Shown one piece after another: positions 13,694 through 20,409 of a stretch of 64,000 bases of DNA. Within the stretch, counting starts at the first letter, position 1, and every line of letters begins with the position of its first letter. The notes below the pieces were generated by a model. That model was not told the origin of the DNA, ran no database searches, and saw nothing but the letters and a program-made list of their open reading frames with translations. Source of the stretch: Verrucomicrobiota bacterium (lineage in GTDB: Bacteria; Verrucomicrobiota; Kiritimatiellia; SS1-B-03-39; UBA6053); contig JAFIGD010000003.1 in the NCBI GenBank assembly GCA_020831625.1, forward strand, positions 62,001 through 126,000, read 5' to 3'. The position numbers and the translations under genes were made by a program.

Positions 13694-15676
13694 ATGTTTC
13701 CCACACCCCTTCCCTCGACGCTGATTGCGGACCGCACCTGGATTTTTGACGATGTGACTCCGGATCTTTTTGTGTTTATGCCGGCGGGTCTGTACGCCGG
13801 AAACCGATTTCCCTCTCTGTGTGTGGATTATTCCCCGCGGGTGCCGGAGGACCGGCTGCGCGGGAAAGAGACCCCGCCGTATATCACCGATGTGCCGCGT
13901 TTGCGGCTGGAGGAGGGCTTCTCCTCTGTGCAGCTGAAATCCGGAGACCTGGCGTTTCCGGCCTTCGGTTTTTATGATCCGCGGTCCGGCCGCGGCTGGC
14001 TGGCGGTGGCGGAGGATCCGGCGGCGGCGGCGGACTGGCTCTGGGAAATCGAGGAGTCCGGCGACCGCCGGCGGATTTGCTTTCGGGTGTCGAATCCGGC
14101 CGTGCGCCGCTCTCCGGTGTATTTGATGCCGAAAATGCAGCGGGAATCTCTCGATGTGCCGCCGGATCAACCGGGCGTCACGCCGTCTGTGCGGATTGTG
14201 GAGGGGGATTATGCGACGCTGACGGACTGGCTGGACGCGGTGTTCTCTCTGCGGGCCGGTCTGTGCGACGGCCAGACCGTGCCCGCCACGGTGCCGATGT
14301 CTCACGCGTTTGATCTGATTGAGGAACATTACAACCGCGACAGTTGGAACGAGGCCGTCGGTGTGTTCACAACCGACTGTAACCCGCAGTCGCGCTATCC
14401 GTTTCAAACCGGCTGGTGCGGGGGGATGATCGCCACGCAGGGGCTGCTCGCGGGCCGGGATCCGCTCACCCGGACGCGGCTTCTGAAAAATCTGGAGACA
14501 TTTCTTCTCCGCGCGCCGCGTCCCTGCGGTCTGTTTTACGGGCGGGCGAGTCTGGACGGTGAATGGACGCCCGATTTCGCGCATCAGCCGGATAAGCCGT
14601 ATACGCATCAGTGGACGCTCACGCGGCGTCAGGGTGACGCGCTGTTGTATCTGATCCGTCAGCTTCAGGCGTTGGGGGAAGAGGTTCCGGACGCCTGGTG
14701 GGGGGCTGTGCGCCGGGCGGCGGATTTCTGGGTGGACCTTTGGCGGCGCGAGGGGCAGTTCGGTCATTTCCTGCATCAGGAGACCGGCGAAATTTTTGTC
14801 GGCGGTTCGGCATCCGGGGCGGTTGTGCCTGCCGCGCTGGTCGCCGCGCACGCGCGTTTCGGGGATGAACGCTATCTGGAGACCGCCGAGGCATCCGCGC
14901 GGATGTTCGCCGGGGAGTTTCTGAGCCGGGGCGTGTTTACCGGCGGACCGGGGGACGCGATGCAGAATCCCGACAGCGAATCGATTTCCGCCTATGTGGA
15001 GTCCTGCGCCGCGCTGTATCAGGCGACCGGCGCGCCGGAATGGCTGACGCACGGCCGCGCCGCCGCCGCGCTGGCCGCGACCTGGGTGATGCCCTATAAT
15101 TTTCCGTTTCCCGCGGAGACTGAATTCGGGCGGCACCGGATCCACAGTCGGGGATCGGTCTTCGCCAACACCCAGAACAAACATGCCGCGCCGGGGATTT
15201 GCACGCATTCCGGTCTGGGTCTGCTGACGCTTTTCCGCGCCACCGGCGACGAGCGGCTGATGGATCTGTTGCGGGATATTGTGCGCTTTATGCCGCAGAC
15301 GGTGTCGCGGCCCGACCGTCCGGTTCATGATGCGCAGGGAAACGCCATGCCGTCGGGATGGATCAATGAACGGGTGAACACCAGCGACTGGGATCACAAT
15401 GTGGGGGGCGTGTTTTACGGATCGTGTTGGTGCGAGGTGTCGCTGTTGCTCAGTTATGCCGAACTGCCCGGCGTGTATGCCCGGAGCGATTCGCGCAAGA
15501 TTTGGTGTCTGGACAATGTCGAGGCGGAATGGGAGGGCGACACCCTGCGGCTCCGCAATCCCACCCCGTATCCCGCCCGGGTCAAGGTGTGGATCGAGAC
15601 GGCGGAGGACGCGGCGAAACCCCTGCCGGTTTTGGCCCTGCCCGGTTGCAGGCTGTTTACGCTGGATCCGGCGTGA
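13694..15676 (+). CDS. Unrecognised 660-aa (alpha/alpha)-barrel glycosidase-like protein
   Basis: 660 aa with no signal peptide. The first about 200 residues are beta-rich, like an N-terminal sandwich domain. From about 215 onward the chain is helical with evenly spaced aromatic clusters: YPFQTGWCGGMIATQGLL, HFLHQETGEIF, AYVESCAALYQATGAPEW, NKHAAPGICTHSGLGLLTL and WDHNVGGVFYGSCWCEVSL. This is the rhythm of an (alpha/alpha)6 or 7 barrel as in uncharacterised glycoside hydrolases or lyases. The conserved-looking HQETGE and SDWDHN segments are candidate active-site loops. It follows a LacI gene in the same direction and precedes a sulfatase cluster, which suggests a polysaccharide role. I cannot name a family. 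Confidence 0.6.
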   Translation: MFPTPLPSTLIADRTWIFDDVTPDLFVFMPAGLYAGNRFPSLCVDYSPRVPEDRLRGKETPPYITDVPRLRLEEGFSSVQLKSGDLAFPAFGFYDPRSGRGWLAVAEDPAAAADWLWEIEESGDRRRICFRVSNPAVRRSPVYLMPKMQRESLDVPPDQPGVTPSVRIVEGDYATLTDWLDAVFSLRAGLCDGQTVPATVPMSHAFDLIEEHYNRDSWNEAVGVFTTDCNPQSRYPFQTGWCGGMIATQGLLAGRDPLTRTRLLKNLETFLLRAPRPCGLFYGRASLDGEWTPDFAHQPDKPYTHQWTLTRRQGDALLYLIRQLQALGEEVPDAWWGAVRRAADFWVDLWRREGQFGHFLHQETGEIFVGGSASGAVVPAALVAAHARFGDERYLETAEASARMFAGEFLSRGVFTGGPGDAMQNPDSESISAYVESCAALYQATGAPEWLTHGRAAAALAATWVMPYNFPFPAETEFGRHRIHSRGSVFANTQNKHAAPGICTHSGLGLLTLFRATGDERLMDLLRDIVRFMPQTVSRPDRPVHDAQGNAMPSGWINERVNTSDWDHNVGGVFYGSCWCEVSLLLSYAELPGVYARSDSRKIWCLDNVEAEWEGDTLRLRNPTPYPARVKVWIETAEDAAKPLPVLALPGCRLFTLDPA

Positions 15677-15742
15677 CGCGCTTGTAAGGGATGCGGGGTA
15701 ACGGGGTTCTGTTTTGGTGCTGTGATGGTTTCCCCATCTCAT

Positions 15743-15794
15743 AATCTTAATCTTAATCTTAATCTTAATCGTAATCGTAATCGTAATCGTAATC
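15743..15794 (+). repeat. Hexanucleotide tract (AATCTT)4(AATCGT)4
   Basis: Four AATCTT units are followed by four AATCGT units and a final AATC, starting 66 bp after the stop of the 660-aa protein gene. The same structure, inverted with the reading direction, is found at 37988-38027 after the ABC permease gene. In both cases the AATCTT block is nearer the stop codon of the preceding gene. Confidence 0.85.
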
Positions 15795-16650: not shown

Positions 16651-18126
16651 ATGAAGTCCTCGCCGAATGTCCTGATCCTCATGACGGATCAGCACCGATG
16701 GGATTACCTGAGTTGCGTGATCCCGGGCGTGCCGACCCCGAATCTGGACCGTCTGGCCGCGCGCGGCGCGCGGTTTTCCGAAGCGGTGTGCAGTTGCCCG
16801 ATGTGTATTCCCAGCCGTTACAGCGCCTTTACAGGACTGTATCCCTCCCAGTTGGGTGTTCGCAATAACAGTCAGACCATCCAAAATCCGTCGGAGAGTC
16901 CGGTGCCCACGCTGTTTGAGCGTCTACAAGGGGCGGGCTATCACACGATCGGGGCGGGGAAAACGCATTGGACATTGCCCGGCGGCGAGTTTTCGGGGCT
17001 GCAGGCTCCGGCACCGTCCACCCGCGGTTTTGAGCGGCGGTTCATCGGCCGCATGCCTGGCGGTCATGACAGTGAACCCGGTGCCCTGCATTACGGGGAT
17101 GCGGCGGAATATCCTCAAAGAATGCTGGAGATTCGAGAATGGAATGTCGAATGCGGATGGGGCGGGGAGGGGGTTGAGGGCTATCGCGGCCGCACCCTGC
17201 CCGGCGACGGCTCGGATTTGCGCGAGGCCTGGCTGACCGATAAAATGTTGCAGGCGCTGGACGAAGCGCCCGCGGACCGCCCCTGGCTGGGCTATCTGTC
17301 GTTTGACGCGCCGCACGCGCCACTCTTCGCGCCCGGGGCCTGGATGGAGAAAATCGATCCCGGAGCGCTTCCGCTTCCCGATCTCTCCGCGCTTGCCGAC
17401 GAGGATCATTTCCCTCCGCTCCGCCACACCCTGGAGGCCGCCCGGGCCTGGGCGGCGATGCCGGAACGGGAGCAGCGTCTCAGCCTCGCCCGCTATGCCG
17501 CCCTGTGCGCGTATTCCGATCACCAGTTCGGACGCGTGCTCGACTGGCTGGATCAGAGTGGACAGCGGGAAAACACCGTTGTGGTGTTTCTGTCCGATCA
17601 CGGGGAAAGTCTTGGGGACCGGGGGCGTTTCAGCAAGTATTCGCTCTATGAAGAGAGTGTGCGCGTGCCTTTGATTTTGGCCGGTCCCGGTGTGCCGGAG
17701 GGGCAGGTGGATGTCCGTCCCGCCAATCTGATTGATCTGGTTCCCACGCTGCTGCAGGTCTGCGGGGGCGACTGTCCAGCGGAATTACCCGGTGAATCTC
17801 TGCTGCGGCCTCCGGTCCGGAAAGGCGCATTTGCGGAAATGCACGGGAACGGGATGAGTCCCCAGCCCGCGCCGCTTTGGATGTGGCGGACCCCGGAATG
17901 GAAACTGGTGACCGGCGGCCGCGGAAGCTGGCGCGACCAGCGCGAACAGCGGCATCCGCCCGTGCGCGAGCTGTATCATCTGGCCACGGATCCCGGGGAG
18001 CGGATCAACCGTTATGCCGACCCTGCCTGTGCCGGCATCCGCGGCGAACTGCAGGAAGCGCTGCTGGACCACCTGCAGAGCACTCTGGCCGTCTGGCCCC
18101 GCCGGGACGGAGCTCCGGTAGATTGA
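16651..18126 (+). CDS. Type I sulfatase
   Basis: 491 aa. VLILMTDQHRWDYL near the start carries metal-binding Asp13. CSCPMCIPSRYSAFTG contains the sulfatase signature C-x-P-S-R, with Cys52 as the residue converted to formylglycine by a maturase. VVVFLSDHGESLGD provides the second metal-binding block, and GKTHW and DAPHAP are further active-site segments. No clear signal peptide is seen, so export or cytosolic action is unsettled. The enzyme removes sulfate esters from a carbohydrate. It follows the carbohydrate-binding-like protein by 3 bp. The sequence just after its stop is the relic of an SGNH hydrolase. Confidence 0.93.
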   Translation: MKSSPNVLILMTDQHRWDYLSCVIPGVPTPNLDRLAARGARFSEAVCSCPMCIPSRYSAFTGLYPSQLGVRNNSQTIQNPSESPVPTLFERLQGAGYHTIGAGKTHWTLPGGEFSGLQAPAPSTRGFERRFIGRMPGGHDSEPGALHYGDAAEYPQRMLEIREWNVECGWGGEGVEGYRGRTLPGDGSDLREAWLTDKMLQALDEAPADRPWLGYLSFDAPHAPLFAPGAWMEKIDPGALPLPDLSALADEDHFPPLRHTLEAARAWAAMPEREQRLSLARYAALCAYSDHQFGRVLDWLDQSGQRENTVVVFLSDHGESLGDRGRFSKYSLYEESVRVPLILAGPGVPEGQVDVRPANLIDLVPTLLQVCGGDCPAELPGESLLRPPVRKGAFAEMHGNGMSPQPAPLWMWRTPEWKLVTGGRGSWRDQREQRHPPVRELYHLATDPGERINRYADPACAGIRGELQEALLDHLQSTLAVWPRRDGAPVD

Positions 18127-18127
18127 C

Positions 18128-18289
18128 TTACGCGTACAGCCCGCTGATGTGTCCGGCAATCAATCAATGCCCCGCCGCATTCGGATGCACGCCATCGGAA
18201 CTGACATACCCCGATCCCAATCAGGCCGGGTCGCCGCGGTCACGGGAGGCGTCGGTGATGCTGTCACCGGGGAATGTATGCAGCGGCGG
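18128..18289 (-). pseudogene. Remnant of a second SGNH hydrolase with internal deletion and two stops
   Basis: On the minus strand the frame of the neighbouring SGNH gene runs on as FPGDSITDASRDRGDPA, stop TGA (18221-18223), then LGSGYVSSDGVHPNAAGH, stop TGA, then LIAGHISGLYA, stop TAA (18128-18130). GDSITDAxRxR...LGxGYV is block I of a classical SGNH hydrolase, and DGVHPNAAGHxLIA is its block V with the catalytic Asp-His pair. The 150 or so residues normally between them are missing. Both internal TGA codons are one C-to-T change away from CGA (Arg), which would fit in GHRLIA. The open frame of the intact gene at 18916 now reads into this relic. Confidence 0.75.
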
Positions 18290-18916
18290 GGTGCCGGTTC
18301 GGAGGATACGGTCGAATTCGCGGCGCAGAAACCCGGCCTGGGCGCGGCTGATCGCAGGGTGGAAATGCACATGATCCTTGTAGAGTTCGCCCGGGAGGGT
18401 GGCGGTGAAATCATACAGATCGATGATGGACACGCCCGAATCCCTCATGACCTCTTTGGAAATTCGATTGTACTCGGCAAGATCGGCTTCCCGCCGGTGA
18501 AAGGCGGAATTACAACGAAGATGCCTCGTTTCATCCAGGGGTGTGGTGGTGATCCAGATCAGGCGTTTGCCGGCGTATCGAAGCAAGGCCGCGATTTCCA
18601 GAAGGTTGGCGCGGTACCGGTCGGGCGGCACCTGAATCTCCCCGGTGTCGGGGTTGCGTTTGATGTCATGCAATCCGCAATTGACCGCTACTGCGGATTC
18701 TGGAAGTCCGGCCTGCAGTTCTTCGCGAAGATGCTCAAGCACCTTTTCGGAATCTCCGCCGTTCGCGCCCTGTGCCGCATCGAGATTCCGGTTCGCCACA
18801 TCCAGGCCGCCTTTGCGCCGGTACACATAGCCCTCCCGCAACAGGACTTCCAGGAACGGATGGTACTGGATGGAGATGCTGTCACCCACAAGGTAGATCG
18901 AAGGAGGATGTTTCAT
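18221..18916 (-). CDS. SGNH/GDSL-family hydrolase, probable carbohydrate esterase
   Basis: 231 aa. IYLVGDSISIQYHPF has the nucleophile Ser of block I (GDS, about residue 13). VAVNCGLHDIKR is an NxGxHD-type oxyanion segment, and DHVHFHPAI carries the catalytic Asp and His (near residue 191). The family usually deacetylates sugars. The last about 19 residues (from TFPGDSITDAS) are not native: they are block I of a decayed second SGNH gene, so the original stop has been lost or the two genes fused. No signal peptide is seen. It lies between two sulfatase genes, consistent with de-esterifying a sulfated, acetylated glycan. Confidence 0.85.
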   Translation of the reverse strand: MKHPPSIYLVGDSISIQYHPFLEVLLREGYVYRRKGGLDVANRNLDAAQGANGGDSEKVLEHLREELQAGLPESAVAVNCGLHDIKRNPDTGEIQVPPDRYRANLLEIAALLRYAGKRLIWITTTPLDETRHLRCNSAFHRREADLAEYNRISKEVMRDSGVSIIDLYDFTATLPGELYKDHVHFHPAISRAQAGFLRREFDRILRTGTPPLHTFPGDSITDASRDRGDPA

Positions 18917-18947: not shown

Positions 18948-20360
18948 TCAGGGCCTTGGCCATTCGCTCACATCCCAGTCGCGGCTTCCCGCGCCGGGGT
19001 GAAGTTGATCCCAGGTATTTACCCGTTGGGGGAGGGGAATGCCGATAGGTTCGGGTTCGAGAAGCGGGTCCCGCGTGTCACGCATCCAGGTGTCGAGTTT
19101 GGTCCGCAGATCCTGCAGGGCATTCCGGATTTCACTCCCCACGTCACCTTCCGCACTCCACACTCCACACTCCGCATTCCGCACTTCGCACTCCGCACTT
19201 CCCAAAAGGTTGCGGCGCTCCATGGGGTCGAAGAGCAGGTCGTAAAGCTCCTCCGGCGGCACCGGACGGTCCGTCATGCCGTGGTCCATGAGGAGGCGTT
19301 TGCTGTGACCGTCGTCGCAGTTGGGCATGACGGTGTTACGGGGGAGCGCGTAATTCCGGATGTAACTCCAGCGCTGGGTGCGGACACAGCGTTTGGGTTC
19401 GAAGGCCGCGTGAAAGGTCACTTCGGTGAACAGTTCATCGCGAACGGTGTCGGTTTTTCCTTCGATGAGCGGAAGCAGGGACCGGCCCTCCAGCCAGGCG
19501 GGCGGATCCACCTTCAGCAGGTCGCAAAGGGTGGGATACACATCCAGATGGCTCACGAGTGAATCGAAGACCCTGCCTTTGCCGGCCCCGCCGGGCAGCC
19601 GCAGAATCAGGAGCACGCCGCTGCCGTGGTGGGTAAGGCTACATTTGTGCTCCGGAAAGGCGATGCCGTGGTCGGTAGTGGCGAGCACCAGGGTGTCATC
19701 GGCGAGTCCGGAGGCGTCGAGGGCCTCGAGAATCCGGCCGTAAAAGCTGTCGAGCCGTTCGACGCTGTGACGGAAATCGAGCCAGTCCCGGCGGGTTTCC
19801 GGACTGTCGGGCAGAATGGCGGGAACCTGGACGTAGTCGGGATTGCCTTCGCCGTCTTTGGGGGAATGGTGCGGCATGTTGAAGCCTTGGCAGACCCATT
19901 CGGTGCGGTGGGTTTCGAGAAAACCGGCGTCCAGAAAGAAGGGGACGGAGCCGTTTTGGCGTTTGAGAAAAGCGACCGCGTCCTCCACCACCAGATTGCC
20001 GTCCTGGTGGTCGTGCCGGGCGGACTCCAGATAGCCGTGCGCTTCGTCGGGACCGCCCACATGGGACAGGCCCGATTTATGCGTGAGAAATCCGTGACCT
20101 TTCAGGAAGTTGGCCAGATGCCGTTCCGGGTATTTCAGGGAGCTGCCCCGGTGGCAGAGGCCGACCATGCCGGCGCCGTGGGCGCTTTGTCCGGTAAGCA
20201 GGGCCGCGCGGCTGGGGGAGCAGGTGGGGGCCGCGCAGTGGGCGTCCCGAAAGAAGCAGCCCTGTTCCGCGAGGTGTTGAAGCGCGGGAGTCCGCACCGG
20301 AACGCCGTGGGGTTGAATGCAGCGTCCGGTGTCGTGGCTGTGCAGGTAGAGGATGTTCAT
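18948..20360 (-). CDS. Type I sulfatase
   Basis: 470 aa starting at MNILYLHSHDTGR (ATG 20358-20360), the usual start for heparan- or N-sulfoglucosamine-type sulfatases; nine more upstream codons add nothing. Cys47 lies in CAAPTCSPSRAALLTG, the formylglycine site (C-S-P-S-R). LVLATTDHGIAFPEHKC is the second metal site, and Asp10 with the following Thr/Gly is the first. The NHDTGR-like start with CSPSRAALLTGQ places it close to sulfatases acting on sulfated glycosaminoglycan-like sugars, but the substrate is not proved. Near the C-terminus (19150-19204) the coding sequence contains an imperfect 7-nt tandem repeat encoding AECEVRNAECGVWSAEG, probably an inserted repeat. Confidence 0.93.
   Translation of the reverse strand: MNILYLHSHDTGRCIQPHGVPVRTPALQHLAEQGCFFRDAHCAAPTCSPSRAALLTGQSAHGAGMVGLCHRGSSLKYPERHLANFLKGHGFLTHKSGLSHVGGPDEAHGYLESARHDHQDGNLVVEDAVAFLKRQNGSVPFFLDAGFLETHRTEWVCQGFNMPHHSPKDGEGNPDYVQVPAILPDSPETRRDWLDFRHSVERLDSFYGRILEALDASGLADDTLVLATTDHGIAFPEHKCSLTHHGSGVLLILRLPGGAGKGRVFDSLVSHLDVYPTLCDLLKVDPPAWLEGRSLLPLIEGKTDTVRDELFTEVTFHAAFEPKRCVRTQRWSYIRNYALPRNTVMPNCDDGHSKRLLMDHGMTDRPVPPEELYDLLFDPMERRNLLGSAECEVRNAECGVWSAEGDVGSEIRNALQDLRTKLDTWMRDTRDPLLEPEPIGIPLPQRVNTWDQLHPGAGSRDWDVSEWPRP
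19150..19204. repeat. CACTCCR/GCACTTC short tandem repeat inside the sulfatase coding sequence
   Basis: A 55-bp tract of 7-nt units (CACTCCA, CACTCCG, CATTCCG, CACTTCG) stays in frame with the sulfatase on the minus strand. It resembles in style the noncoding GAGTGACGA repeats at 23756-23970 and 26017-26052. Confidence 0.65.
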
Positions 20361-20380
20361 TTTGATATGGGTATATGGGT

Positions 20381-20409
20381 TTGACAAAATGGGTGGATGG
20401 TTTTATCAT
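20381..20409 (+). promoter_or_regulatory. Promoter of the vapBC pair
   Basis: TTGACA (20381-20386), a 17-bp spacer and TATCAT (20404-20409) make an almost perfect sigma-70-type promoter. The vapB ATG begins at 20416, 6 nt after the -10 element, so transcription should start at or next to the start codon. The mRNA would then be leaderless. Confidence 0.75.

Follow-up and report, generated by a model that had tools for sequence, protein, structure and literature searches.

How does an esterase gene come to end in the remains of a second esterase domain, and did the two halves of such a locus begin as neighboring genes or as one? The question is raised by a minus-strand locus in a Verrucomicrobiota genome, within a stretch of 64,000 nucleotides that was analysed as a whole and is here called the window (contig JAFIGD010000003.1, positions 62,001 to 126,000, numbered below from its first letter). 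One frame of the minus strand reads ...LHTFPGDSITDASRDRGDPA, TGA, LGSGYVSSDGVHPNAAGH, TGA, LIAGHISGLYA, TAA, and this string, with its two TGA codons and its TAA, reproduces exactly what an earlier, sequence-only reading had described. The open frame that starts at 18916 (-) is 231 codons long and is ended by the TGA at 18223-18221. The comparisons set out below very probably mean that the locus descends from one ancestral fused gene for a bimodular esterase, the second domain of which decayed in the lineage of the window.

The first part of the open frame encodes a complete SGNH domain, domain 1 (residues 1-205; 18302..18916, minus strand), recognized by alignment with its relatives and by a match to Pfam family PF13472 of 41.8 bits, above the cut-off of 32.9. 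Its motifs are GDSIS, GANGGDS, NCGLHD, and DHVHF, and wherever an aligned relative covers the block I Ser (of GDS) or the block V Asp-x-x-His, that motif is conserved. Block III reads NCGLHD, not GxND, with a His replacing the Asn, and this form is invariant in every aligned relative of the domain 1 subfamily that covers the block. Departures at block III are also known in other SGNH families (PMC9487903). Because block III departs in this way, membership of domain 1 among the SGNH hydrolases rests on profile and fold, catalytic detail aside. The domain had been called an active-site-complete esterase, which is right as to its completeness but overlooks that the whole subfamily has His at the usual oxyanion-hole Asn position. 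A structure model of the window protein, built from two sequences, has an SGNH-like alpha/beta fold (mean pLDDT 65.4, a modest confidence), and Foldseek matched the model of domain 1 to TesA, BF3764 (4PPY), Axe2, and other GDSL structures with probability 1.00. As modelled, and with modest confidence, domain 1 thus has the SGNH fold. A search of solved structures by sequence with domain 1 gave no match, and an NCBIfam search with it gave nothing. Domain 1 may still work as a single-domain carbohydrate ester hydrolase.

Behind domain 1 the same strand carries the two ends of a second SGNH domain, domain 2. Residues 206-231 (RTGTPPLHTFPGDSITDASRDRGDPA; 18224..18301), which comprise the linker and the beginning of domain 2, now form the C-terminal tail, an assignment based on a gapless alignment to G001, a genome of the same genus described below, and on a chance test. 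The first in-frame TGA (18221..18223), where translation presently ends, is followed by LGSGYV (18203..18220), placed on the block I side by alignment of domain 2 relatives. Beyond a deletion junction lie block V and the C-terminal end of domain 2 (SSDGVHPNAAGH, stop, LIAGHISGLYA; 18131..18202), interrupted by a second in-frame TGA (18164..18166) and closed by a TAA (18128..18130). The chance test ran the corresponding stretches of G001, ungapped and with BLOSUM62, against all six frames of the window; the block I stretch scored 100 at the locus versus 26 at the next best place, and the block V stretch 61 versus 30. On these scores, the block I and block V remnants are not chance resemblances.

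Compared to G001, 438 nt are absent from the window, which is 146 codons and a multiple of three, such that the deletion is in frame. Because a few bases match both sides of the junction, the breakpoint is placed no more closely than 18206-18203 (18203..18206, minus strand). This bears out the proposal that a second SGNH unit was lost through an internal deletion of some 150 residues, to which the nonsense codons are added. Block I and block V do adjoin, as had been claimed, but the boundary between them has to be moved; LGSGYV, past the first TGA, still belongs to block I, and the junction follows its GYV, at about 18206-18203. In the window, domain 2 has lost blocks II and III to the deletion and carries two in-frame TGA codons, and blocks I, II, III, and V are not found together in one open frame. 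The first TGA stands where G001 has Ser (TCG) and where none of the aligned domain 2 relatives has Arg, and the second where G001 has Arg (CGG). Both TGA codons are indeed one transition away from CGA, as was pointed out, but only the second position is Arg in G001, and a change from CGA to TGA is unsupported for the first stop because of the Ser codon in G001 and the lack of Arg in the aligned relatives. From the start of DGVHP to the stop there are 22 codons in the window versus 20 in G001, and because these distances are nearly equal the fused gene probably ended originally at the TAA at 18130-18128. A search of the window's genome for an intact copy of domain 2 elsewhere found none, the best match having 32% identity. 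Stop-codon recoding was considered and rejected by reasoning, since readthrough of TGA would give no working domain with blocks II and III deleted.

The intact form of the gene is found in G001 (Verrucomicrobia bacterium isolate BM_Day0_Bin.15, record JAFIGC010000046.1), where an open frame of 410 codons (L004:1498-2718, also L048) matches the whole of domain 1 at 73% and then continues with the linker LLRPGLPPLQTFLGDSITD and all of a second SGNH domain (GDSITDASRERNDPASLGNGYV ... NLGVSGNR ... GGINDV ... EDGVHPNDEGHRLIAEKVAPS, then a stop). Both halves of this fused protein match PF13472. The alignment of the window with it covers domain 1, linker, and block I and resumes at block V past the 438-nt gap. 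The G001 gene is an orthologue that is still intact, with its domains in the same order and a homologous linker between them. The two genes share this SGNH-SGNH layout, and differ in that the G001 gene has a complete domain 2, an open frame, other gene neighbors, and CTG in the place of the ATG start of the window gene. The CTG, at L004:1498, is either a rare start codon or an indication of a downstream GTG start, which would shorten the first strand. Because a genome of the same genus carries both domains in one open frame, the fusion would predate the decay, with both domains in a single protein in the common ancestor of the window and G001. The comparison was made on the assembled sequence of both genomes, and G001 is the one intact fused relative of exactly this domain pair; a search of genome contigs with its fused protein returned the G001 record alone. 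Another contig, from G002, ends inside domain 1, and in G003 no domain 1 was found. A structure model of the fused G001 protein (mean pLDDT 53.8) was too poor to be used for domain 2.

The sequence-only reading had given the locus a different history, in which two separate SGNH genes stood in tandem, the second decayed, and the first lost its stop and gained a foreign tail. Taken alone, the window sequence is compatible with this order of events, and domain 1 is single-domain in most of its relatives, because of which a stop must have been lost at some time. However, an intact gene losing its stop into a separate wreck is at odds with G001, where both domains stand intact in one frame across a homologous linker. 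Moreover, the neighborhoods fetched for 17 single-domain relatives (reaching at most about 9 kb to either side of domain 1, and shorter where a contig ends) yielded no separate domain 2 gene, and a tandem origin is accordingly improbable. The check that had been proposed, a search of relatives for two tandem SGNH genes between sulfatases, was negative in these 17 neighborhoods, and the G001 gene is not between sulfatases.

In the window, the gene sits between two sulfatase genes identified with Pfam, at 16651-18126 (+) and 18948-20387 (-), whereas the fused gene of G001 has different neighbors. In G001, a contig other than that of the fused gene carries the orthologue of the 16651 sulfatase (64%) at its edge, and the 18948 sulfatase has a 44% relative at best. 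A conserved sulfatase neighborhood was not found in the G001 comparison, and synteny with G001 neither supports nor opposes descent from a fused gene. Two repeats were noticed in the same region. An imperfect 21-nt tandem repeat at 19133-19202 lies in frame inside the 18948-20387 sulfatase gene and adds approximately 26 low-complexity residues, and a short tandem array of TCTTAA/TCGTAA-type units is found at 15739-15792, just past the end of the gene at 13694-15676.

It is also unlikely that the lesions are errors of assembly or sequencing in a gene that is in fact fused and intact like that of G001. The window does come from a draft assembly of 111 contigs, and the deletion is in frame, but three independent lesions would be needed, the 438-nt deletion and two TGA codons outside of it, and the junction is without a long flanking direct repeat for an assembler to collapse.

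The residues beyond domain 1 had been counted as a foreign tail of about 19; there are about 26 (206-231), and single-domain relatives stop at about residue 198-210 with nothing that resembles them. The whole tail aligns gapless to the linker and block I of G001. Because G001 fuses both domains in one open frame via this homologous linker, the tail is, by sequence comparison, the ancestral linker and start of domain 2, and so the gene's own. Model confidence is lowest in the tail (pLDDT about 36, with the last stretch, 215-231, below 50), and these 26 residues are probably unstructured. The present product, if expressed, would have 231 residues, a complete domain 1 with about 26 extra. It is very hard to credit that the tail serves domain 1 as a functional extension under selection, since G001 still uses these residues for the linker and for block I of a domain 2 that is complete, which explains their good conservation, and the tail is missing from single-domain relatives and modelled as disordered.

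The ancestral gene would thus have encoded a bimodular esterase, composed of SGNH domain 1, a short Pro-containing linker, and an Axe2/GDSL-like SGNH domain 2. In the window lineage, an in-frame deletion of approximately 438 nt between blocks I and V and two nonsense mutations, in either order, would have inactivated domain 2, with translation now stopping at 18221 and a 231-residue protein left. Between the window and G001, domain 1 has a dN of 0.21 and a dS of 0.97 over 199 codons (NG86), and the domain 2 fragments have a dN of 0.15 and a dS of 1.31 over 37 codons (NG86), the latter ratio resting on few codons in naturally conserved motifs. The third codon position bears most of the change in both. 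As an indication only, most of the divergence of the fragments from G001 may have gathered while domain 2 was under constraint. Since the changes in the fragments, like those in domain 1, fall mainly at third positions, the decay is likely to be recent when set against the split from G001, with "recent" to be taken in a weak sense. Gene decay of this kind is ordinary, although the two-domain enzyme that it struck is unusual, and the history of the locus is corrected from a gene capturing the tail of a dead neighbor to a two-domain esterase losing a domain.

Among solved structures, the nearest sequences to domain 2 of G001 are PARMER_00689 (4Q9A; E 2.5e-9), which shares GDSITD...GYV and DGVHP motifs in the alignment, and Axe2, the acetyl-xylooligosaccharide esterase of Geobacillus stearothermophilus (3W7V/4JHL; E 1.3e-6). 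Both are single-domain enzymes; of such a domain, only the two ends survive in the window. Fll4 of Flavimarina sp. is a multimodular carbohydrate esterase with one CE6 and two putative CE1 domains (PMC12247016). It resembles the ancestral form of the window gene in joining several esterase domains in one polypeptide, but its domains are not a pair of the GDSL-type SGNH kind, and it shows no decay. The open-licence literature yielded no account of this sort of SGNH-SGNH fusion, which is weak evidence of absence.

Of 387 genomes sampled across the phylum, 30 have a domain 1 homologue, fused or single (E<=1e-25), and some of these homologues are joined to other partners. In G426 (L079:6080-7573, 498 aa) a different SGNH domain stands in front of domain 1, in G568 and G455 (L080:5811-7109 and L081:5780-7093; 433 and 438 aa) yet another SGNH domain stands behind it, and in G544 (L083:5916-8279, 788 aa) it is preceded by GH2 domains. 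Compared in sequence, the three kinds of SGNH partner show hardly any similarity (E about 5e-4 or worse), whereas between G568 and G455 the identity is 62%. In a tree of domain 1, many forks of which are weakly supported, the fused forms stand apart, with G544 beside G347, G568 beside G455, and G001 and the window next to G426. Because they fall in separate places, the tree suggests several independent fusions, and domain 1 looks like a module recurrently fused to other ester- or sugar-cleaving domains. More tentatively, and with rather less than even confidence, the uncharacterised NCGLHD subfamily could be a mobile helper esterase module that was fused in independent events, with domain 1 in either position, to three unrelated types of SGNH domain and to a GH2 glycosidase; the window would hold a partly dismantled example of this module. 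For annotation of carbohydrate esterases in the phylum, treating domain 1 as a repeatedly joined module would be of modest use. One further homologue, in G007 (L053:9213-9869), is interrupted within the domain by an in-frame TAA (TTPCDE, stop, IHN), which may be a sign of another copy in decay or else a base error.
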